The notes under the pieces: model-generated
Told to the model about the DNA's origin: nothing
Databases searched by the model: none
The model's input: only the letters and a program-made list of their open reading frames with translations
Position numbers and translations under genes: made by a program
Assembly (NCBI RefSeq): GCF_023273895.1
Contig: NZ_CP096883.1
Span: 2,976,001-3,040,000, forward strand
Direction: 5' to 3'
Length of the DNA: 64,000 bases
From: Sphingobacterium sp. PCS056
Lineage (GTDB): Bacteria > Bacteroidota > Bacteroidia > Sphingobacteriales > Sphingobacteriaceae
Part shown: piece after piece, positions 5,351 through 64,000 of the stretch
Layout of the letters: every line of letters starts with the position of its first letter
Numbering within the stretch: the first letter of the stretch is position 1

Positions 5351-5402
5351 ATAAAAACAAGAAAGGCTGATATCCTAGGATATCAGCCTTTCTTGTTTTT
5401 AT
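5351..5402. terminator. Bidirectional terminator, perfect 52-base palindrome
   Basis: The 52 bases are a perfect inverted repeat around 5376/5377 (centre CCTAGG), with A-run and T-run flanks, so it terminates both the purF-type gene (+) and the MFS gene (-). Confidence 0.9.
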
Positions 5403-36922: not shown

Positions 36923-36965
36923 CCATAAAAAATGCGGTTGACACAGTCAACCGCATTTTTTATGG
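36923..36965. terminator. Bidirectional terminator
   Basis: Perfect 20-bp arms (36923-36942 and 36946-36965) with a three-base loop and A6/T6 flanks, between convergent genes. Confidence 0.92.
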
Positions 36966-62770: not shown

Positions 62771-63604
62771 TTATTTGGAAATAATGCTTTTCATGTCCGT
62801 TCTAAATTCACTAGGTGTCTGACTTGACTTTTTCTTGAATACATTTGTAAAATAAGCTTTATCGGTATACCCTAATTCAAAACCAATCTCCGATATGGTT
62901 TTATCTGTATTCATCAGCAAATTTTTAGCTTCAATTAATTTTCTGGTTTCAATAATTTCAGAAACACTTTGCTGTAATATCTGATGACAGATCAGATTGA
63001 GTCCGCGTGCACTCATGAAAAGTTTTTCTGCATAGAAATTCACGGATTCGGGACGATGATAATTTTCTTCTAGAATCGTTAGGAAATTTTTAAAAGTAGT
63101 ACTTGAGTTGGAAAGTGTCGGTAATCCTTCCGGATATTGTTTTCTGTATTCAGACTCGATCATGGTAAATAGCGTACTTAACAGTTGCCGAACAATTCCA
63201 AGATCACTTTGTCCTTCCTGCATCTCGTCGGCAATCATTTGAGCAATATGGGTTAACCTTTGAAAACAAGTTGAATATGTGATGCTAAAAGTAGCATGGT
63301 CGTGGAAATGATTATAAAGTTGAAAAGTGGTTTCGGGAATAAATTCACTTTTGAATCTTAAAACCCAAAATAAACATTTGCCCTCTGTCAGGTGGGGCTT
63401 CACACGATGTGTCTTTCCTTTGGTTACGAAACTGATAAATGGTGCTTCATAAATTTCAGATTTGAAATCAATAAAATGTTCTAATTTTCCTTCAAGGCCA
63501 ATAATGAGTTCTTCGAAATCATGCTGATGAATGTTATTCTCACTATGAGCGATGCGGTTTGCTTCTGCTTCATCAACTTGGTATATTTTGAAAATCTCCT
63601 TCAA
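62771..63604 (-). CDS. AraC-family transcriptional regulator
   Basis: A 277-residue regulator with an N-terminal cupin-like sensor (HQHDFEELIIGLEGKLEHFIDF) and a C-terminal AraC helix-turn-helix (TISEIGFELGYTDKAYFTNVFKKKSSQTPSEFR in pieces). The only usable start is TTG at 63604, preceded in frame by a stop. It lies 108 bases upstream of the YgiD-type gene on the same strand and is probably its regulator. Confidence 0.9.
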   Translation of the reverse strand: MKEIFKIYQVDEAEANRIAHSENNIHQHDFEELIIGLEGKLEHFIDFKSEIYEAPFISFVTKGKTHRVKPHLTEGKCLFWVLRFKSEFIPETTFQLYNHFHDHATFSITYSTCFQRLTHIAQMIADEMQEGQSDLGIVRQLLSTLFTMIESEYRKQYPEGLPTLSNSSTTFKNFLTILEENYHRPESVNFYAEKLFMSARGLNLICHQILQQSVSEIIETRKLIEAKNLLMNTDKTISEIGFELGYTDKAYFTNVFKKKSSQTPSEFRTDMKSIISK

Positions 63605-63941
63605 CGCTTATTGTATTTGTTAAGTTTAAAGTTATACAAAATATGCAATAATCTTAATCGTTATATTTTTTATGCGCTCTGATCGATGATTCATCCGATT
63701 GATTATAGTCCATGGTTAGATGGAAATGTCTTGTTATTGATGATGATTGATCGAGTTCTTATCGTTTATACCAATGGAACATCCATATGCTGGGGCATTA
63801 TGGCTGTATGGGTGATCAGAGAAGTGCAAAATTATTATCTTTTTTAATACGTTATATATAAGAATCAATGTACCTATGTCGTGTTCCAGTATAAAAGCAT
63901 ACCAAATTCTAACCAACTTCGTATTTAATACCGGTATAGTA
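63605..63941. other. Gene-free stretch before the window edge
   Basis: No convincing reading frame, promoter box or repeat was seen in these ~340 bases; the G-tract palindrome follows. Confidence 0.4.
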
Positions 63942-64000
63942 GGGGGATAACAGGGGGTTTATAGGGGGTTAGTAGGGGTACGCCCCTACTAACCCCCTAT
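63942..64000. repeat. G-tract array and perfect palindrome at window end
   Basis: Four G-tracts (GGGGG, GGGGG, GGGGG, GGGG) are spaced by three six-base loops, a period of 11, fitting a G-quadruplex pattern. The last 40 bases (63961-64000) form a perfect hairpin: 18-bp arms around a TACG tetraloop, GGGG-TACG-CCCC at the tip. The window ends at the last base of the second arm, so the full element may extend further. Confidence 0.75.

Follow-up and report, generated by a model that had tools for sequence, protein, structure and literature searches.

The palindrome at the window edge

The right-hand end of the window (the whole 64 000-nucleotide stretch of Sphingobacterium DNA that was analysed) is occupied by G tracts spaced 11 bases apart, TAGGGGGATAACAGGGGGTTTATAGGGGGTTAGTAGGGG (63940-63978), a TACG loop and a C-rich segment, CCCCTACTAACCCCCTAT, that fills the stretch from the loop (63979-63982) up to the window edge (Table 1). 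Direct reading bears out the periodic G array, the loop and the mirrored C arm that had been described in an earlier note on this DNA. The perfect arms within the window are 18 bp long, and once the flanking DNA is added, the perfect stem reaches 25 bp (63954-63978 paired with 63983-64007), so that the mirror postulated beyond the edge indeed stays perfect for 7 more bases; the bases directly past the edge read AAACCCTAAG rather than the predicted AAACCCCCTG. Beyond the break in the stem, an outer inverted repeat takes over, and the result is the large palindrome that had been suspected, an imperfect one of about 170 bp overall that crosses the window edge. The fold of the palindrome as single-stranded DNA has a z-score of -7.8, with none of 200 shuffled sequences folding as well. 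As to the G-quadruplex proposed in the earlier note, the G arm by itself could fold into one as RNA (-19.3 kcal/mol by prediction), but the whole palindrome favours the hairpin, and the G tracts are not conserved.

The 16S gene of the adjacent rRNA operon starts 848 bp past the window edge; this link, like that to the partner gene described below, falls outside the window. Between the array and a promoter-like motif of this operon, 0.1-0.2 kb past the edge (L031 3096-3224), there is a degenerate 8-bp tandem repeat, approximately AGTAACGA, that varies among the five array-bearing rRNA operons. Nothing over the array reached the Rfam gathering score in the stretches searched, and a comparison with phage and plasmid collections gave no match. 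The window also contains longer perfect palindromes than the in-window 18-bp arm, with 24-bp arms (5351-5402) and 20-bp arms (36923-36965); with their T-rich ends on both strands, these are likely bidirectional terminators.

Table 1. Coordinates of the element at the window edge, its nearest gene and related loci
Feature	Position	Strand	Remarks
Left outer inverted-repeat arm (CCAAATTCTAACCAACTTCG...)	63901..63939		From fold and copy alignment; partner at ~64008-64057, outside the window; outer-pairing coordinates approximate
G-rich arm, 11-bp-period units TAGGGGGATAA/CAGGGGGTTTA/TAGGGGGTTAG/TAGGGG	63940..63978	+	Includes the 25-bp perfect arm 63954-63978
TACG loop	63979..63982		Sequence reading
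C-rich inverted arm	63983..64000		Cut by the window edge; perfect as far as 64007
AraC-type regulator gene	62771..63604	-	Closest gene on the left, outside the element; divergent from the rRNA operon
Array loci far upstream of one rRNA operon	G000:C1:290290, G005:C1:2826071, G052:C1:895119
Neighbouring rRNA operon pairs	G000:C1 597432-606893, G000:C1 1178759-1194308

Copies in the genome and their gene context

The element is a dispersed repeat, as the earlier note had surmised. A DNA search of the single-contig 5.2-Mb genome yields 8 good copies, and a covariance model (R1), built on 26 arrays taken from this genome and from others, recovers 14 loci at E <= 0.01, of which six match weakly; the earlier note had named a mirror ending at the window edge and the lack of a second copy as arguments against its reading, and the mirror crosses the edge and further copies exist. 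Of the eight 16S genes of the genome, five are preceded by a copy at a distance of 815-845 bp. The three other good copies are found in the intergenic region between a presumably fumarylacetoacetate hydrolase-like gene and a DUF6266 gene, ahead of a gene that is presumably pcrA/uvrD-like, and between two tandem genes. The contig itself terminates shortly past an rRNA operon-linked array (G000:C1:5195491-5195665).

In five complete genomes, with about 14-19 loci each, 23 of the 77 loci have a 16S gene at most 1.5 kb downstream, compared with 0.15 expected under uniform placing. The 54 copies away from rRNA operons comprise 20 in divergent, 9 in convergent and 25 in tandem gaps, compared with 32, 13 and 51 among 96 other long gaps; this sample consists of 53 of the 54 such loci of the five genomes (one G055 locus was left out) and one G087 locus, and gene calling followed a plain longest-frame rule, by which the L135 array falls inside one called frame. 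The placement between convergent genes that the earlier note had raised thus shows no excess (9/54 versus 13/96), and a strong terminator, also proposed there, can be dismissed because no T run follows the stem and the gene contexts resemble the background gaps.

An array precedes the genes of a DUF6266 subfamily

Several array copies stand 5' of a DUF6266-like gene that encodes a protein of about 211 residues, hereinafter the partner protein, which belongs to a subfamily of DUF6266 (PF19781). The 190 genes collected encode 133 non-identical proteins, 95 of which score above 150 bits and have at least 200 bp of upstream sequence. When the strongest autocorrelation at lags 7-16 was determined in the 260 bp preceding the start codon, lag 11 was the best or tied upstream of all 95 non-identical genes and of 149/149 genes when identical proteins are included (with one tie in the full set, at L344), and the lag-11 autocorrelation was at least 0.6 in 90 of the 95. 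Among 366 other long frames of the same loci, which served as the control, only 15% are best at lag 11 and 4% reach 0.6. Relatives scoring 80-150 bits show the 11-bp preference in 8 of 8 cases, and other genera likewise have an array ahead of the gene.

A stricter test, for a long ungapped stem within 350 bp upstream, is passed by 21 of 53 named loci compared with 2 of 53 in the downstream control; few loci pass because the arms are commonly unequal or diverged. Among distant DUF6266 genes, 16 of 29 prefer 11 bp, seven of these at 0.6 or above (for example, with TTCGGTGCTTC units), and 13 show no such preference; a hairpin scan upstream of genes identified with the Pfam model found an array-like structure at 1 of 30 loci (L189). 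At L186 and L199, distant DUF6266 genes are preceded by 11-bp arrays of TTCGGTGCTTC units with a diverged inverted half. A distant DUF6266-like gene in a Pedobacter MAG (L288, gene at 773) is preceded by a GC-rich palindrome, CGTTGGCG...CGCCAACG, that has no 11-bp period. The link to arrays may extend through much of the DUF6266 family. For the subfamily itself, we consider it close to certain that dispersed, one-turn palindromic arrays and the gene form a pair.

Period and symmetry, not G tracts, are conserved

In the arrays of relatives, the 11-bp period and the inverted arms are retained, and the G tracts are swapped for GAGGGTTTAT or TTAGGTTTAGT units. At the pcrA locus of sister species, both arms are altered jointly, the genome studied here (G000) having GGGGGTTAAT units where G005 and G052 have units of the GAGGGTTT type. 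An array located 16.7-16.9 kb upstream of one rRNA operon is likewise retained in three species with differing unit types (Table 1). A conserved G-quadruplex is ruled out by the TTAGG-type relatives, which have just GG in each unit while period and symmetry are intact.

Mismatches in the stems are not biased towards wobble pairs: 57 gene-adjacent arrays, counted after those with a stem score under 10 had been set aside, have 50 G-T and 40 A-C (p = 0.34), which disfavours an RNA element, and 15 rRNA operon leaders, including two with an unrelated hairpin as the stem, have 7 G-T and 16 A-C (p = 0.09). Mutation can itself produce symmetry, through the bias towards perfect palindromes known as quasipalindrome correction. 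Because the arms change together without a wobble bias, the symmetry seems either to matter in double-stranded DNA or to be kept by such mutation.

These observations bear on the possibility that the array is a structural or transcriptional element without a partner, that is, a terminator, insulator, cruciform or G-quadruplex perfected by quasipalindrome correction. The high stability of the hairpin and the quadruplex predicted for the G arm fit such an element, but there is no T tract, no excess of convergent genes and no wobble bias, related arrays have only GG, Rfam gives no gathering-score match in the stretches searched, and the arrays are tightly linked to a single gene subfamily. We regard this explanation as very improbable.

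Co-occurrence of array and gene

Matches to R1 were detected in 52 of 93 Sphingobacterium genomes, and in 37 of 201 genomes and 7 of 25 genera of the family, all these counts being lower bounds given the strict filters and the few candidates scored. With a profile of ten partner proteins (A3), a strong relative (E <= 1e-30) was found in 53 of the 93 genomes of the genus. Array and gene occur together in 51 genomes, a weak element alone in one (G062), the gene alone in two (G047 and G071) and neither in 39; the genomes are related and phylogenetically non-independent, so that p-values overstate independence. Because the array of the gene itself scores as a match, copies beyond it were counted separately: of the 53 gene-positive genomes, at least 47 have such copies (four are uncertain and two have none), compared with 1 of 40 gene-negative genomes, namely G062 with a weak match (best E 1.8e-4), in which class R1 could overlook other unit types. 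A named relative of the partner gene of the own genome is from S. faecium (78% identical).

The type of unit follows the lineage of the protein. With labels derived from pattern counts for 67 of the 103 rows of the protein tree (the other 36 were excluded), the unit label changes 5 times, compared with a mean of 29.7 in shuffles, none of 200 being as low, an agreement to which near-copies contribute. A second model (R2), built solely from ten arrays beside genes of the TTAGG lineage, has matches in 24 of the 93 genomes at 1e-5 and in 21 at 1e-10. A profile search shows the TTAGG-lineage gene to be present in 19 of these 21, and all 19 have at least one TTAGG copy away from the gene among the matches listed. 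In G076, the gene is broken off by the contig end and the sole R2 match is the adjoining array, which is already part of R2. Thus, scattered TTAGG copies are found in 19 of the 20 genomes with this gene lineage and in one genome without it, G073, which carries six copies and no gene of the lineage at E <= 1e-30; weak R2 matches without a TTAGG-lineage gene occur in G053, G067 and G089.

Gene decay and possible movement

Genes of a single lineage occupy several contexts, and one hydrolase/HAD locus is common to lineages with different units. Direct comparison shows an array alone at a locus of G079 where the L244 counterpart has array and gene. At L212, L213, L215, L220 and L246, the neighbouring genes are the same and about 1 kb apart. 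At another locus, in G055, an internal stretch is missing from the gene and the array persists, and the gene at the hydrolase locus contains a stop in G005 and G004, with five rRNA operon arrays retained in G005. Gene decay can thus leave solo arrays behind.

An ordinary MITE, in which the arrays are DNA-transposon remnants with palindromic ends and the DUF6266 gene is a chance passenger, would be compatible with the outer inverted repeats, the length of about 170-190 bp, the intergenic location and the several contexts of each gene lineage. However, an array is present at 95 of 95 genes despite the differing units, and a passenger would not make unit and protein co-vary. Among the few comparable empty loci, neither a target duplication nor a clean empty site turned up, and the transposase search covered the Y1 type. 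A MITE origin is, in our assessment, quite improbable.

rRNA operons

In 11 complete genomes, an array of either unit type lies within 1.5 kb upstream of 53 of 80 16S genes among the matches listed, and G067 has none at its 7 rRNA operons, again among the matches listed; in two leaders of G087 that were scored empty (L417 and L420), a TTAGG array is visible by eye, and leader L408 holds both array types. The operon behind a gene that is presumably rpoC-like has no array in the four genomes inspected. In the own genome, only one member of each neighbouring pair of rRNA operons (Table 1) has an array. The leaders within one genome are partly homogenised, and therefore the independent arrivals of arrays at rRNA operons are probably few.

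The arrays could simply be operators, kept by selection because a regulator, either the DUF6266 protein or another, binds them to control a regulon to which the DUF6266 gene and the rRNA operons belong, without any spreading. The position of the arrays 5' both of the gene and of most 16S genes (53/80, among the matches listed) is in line with this interpretation, as are the gene contexts, which lack a terminator bias, and the motif TAnnTTTG, which we take to be promoter-like and which 14 of 96 genes have at 49-67 bp upstream of the start codon, compared with 6% in shuffled sequences. However, the rRNA operon arrays are located about 0.7-1.2 kb from the 16S gene, at least about 0.35 kb above the promoter-like motif of the operon and at variable distances, the remaining neighbour genes vary between clades, and G067 has no arrays at its rRNA operons. 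Pure operators are therefore an unlikely explanation, the strongest of the rivals.

The partner protein

PF19781 is matched at E <= 0.1 by 43 of 51 partner proteins; its gathering score of 23.4 is exceeded by the partner of the own genome (30.6 bits) and by L236 (24.5), and two members from other genomes fall slightly under it (22.1 and 22.0). The mean net charge in 95 proteins is +11.4 for residues 1-95 and -5.6 from residue 116 onward, and the basic N-terminal part fits a nucleic acid-binding role. The AlphaFold model of L236 (pLDDT 88) consists of strands and helices in residues 1-115 followed by an FN3-like sandwich; residues ~115-212 match FN3 domains with Z up to 10.4 (rmsd 2.4, 87 aligned residues; best Foldseek E 1.4e-3). 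A viral structure library gave an uncharacterised protein at E 5.5e-5, with TM 0.48/0.38, followed by an FN3 phage protein at E 5.2e-4.

For residues 1-115 alone, Foldseek gave nothing under E 1.4 and no match exceeded Z 2.6, which does not imply a new fold. The structure searches found no enzyme fold, and the FN3-like C-terminal part gives no hint of DNA binding. The best E in a sequence search of the PDB was 0.19; PADLOC and NCBIfam gave no match for three proteins, and PHROGs matched one of the three weakly (E 0.019).

A putative two-part system

The feature at the window edge is probably a dispersed, gene-less copy of a two-part system of arrays and a DUF6266-subfamily protein. The first part would be the palindromic array of 11-bp units, each about one helical turn, with direct repeats in one arm and inverted copies in the other, surrounding a short loop and bounded by outer inverted repeats. 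The second part would be the DUF6266-subfamily gene with its own array directly upstream, each lineage having its own unit sequence. Judging from the protein sequences, it is fairly likely that the partner protein binds the array; its basic N-terminal part would contact the double-stranded form, each helical turn taking up one protomer and all protomers sitting on a single face, and the protein could in this manner control its own gene. The protein might also maintain or spread the scattered arrays, as is thought for RAYT and REPINs; spreading is a tentative proposal that we consider somewhat more doubtful than not. The regions upstream of rRNA operons would then be favoured, or perhaps tolerated, places for arrays.

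A more far-reaching version, to which we assign a low probability, is that the DUF6266 family constitutes a novel class of site-specific array binders that write or maintain their cognate one-turn arrays, protein and unit co-evolving. The resident protein might then convert arrays at fixed loci, the ones ahead of rRNA operons among them, to its own unit type where they stand, an unlikely corollary; at the pcrA-like and 290-kb loci, the unit type differs between sister species. If real, such array writing would be a form of repeat maintenance that involves no known transposase, reverse transcriptase or recombinase.

The pairing of array and DUF6266 is apparently undescribed as far as the literature searched shows: a search for DUF6266 or PF19781, with most subscription journals and preprints outside its coverage, returned no paper. 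The novelty lies in this pairing of family and arrays, and would be smaller should the arrays turn out to be mere operators. An uncharacterised protein family is now tied to a testable DNA substrate, the location before rRNA operons opens a host role to testing, and the system would be a second, apparently unrelated case of the puzzle posed by REPIN/RAYT, the joint persistence of a few dispersed palindromes and one gene.

Comparison with known systems

Compared with DUF6266 (PF19781) at large, the array-linked subfamily is often low-scoring (22-51 bits among those scored), and several classical members occur in tandem pairs, with 13 of 29 distant members lacking the 11-bp preference. By analogy, REPIN/RAYT is the nearest working model and ParR/parC the nearest for iterated one-turn sites. 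In ParR/parC, iterated sites are located upstream of the system's gene, the repeats of plasmid R1 are 11 bp long, and the specificity of site and protein varies between families (PMC9426499); the arrays analysed here differ in being palindromic and scattered over the chromosome, and the partner protein is not known as ribbon-helix-helix.

Identity with RAYT is ruled out: the array-linked gene is DUF6266-like, and the Y1 transposase (PF01797) is absent from 7 of 8 array-rich genomes (G000, G005, G052, G055, G079, G087 and G060), the array-bearing G067 having one weak PF01797 gene (36 bits). Furthermore, the arrays consist of 11-bp units and not of a pair of REP hairpins, and each of the five genomes counted has about 14-19 loci. 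The likeness lies in the organisation. Like REPINs (PMC3116915), the arrays are scattered intergenic palindromes with a distinct partner gene adjoining its own type of repeat, with several types per genome and one gene for each, and the repeats are absent without the gene in nearly all tested genomes. Each array type analysed here adjoins its own partner gene, in 95 of 95 cases, and tracks the protein tree.
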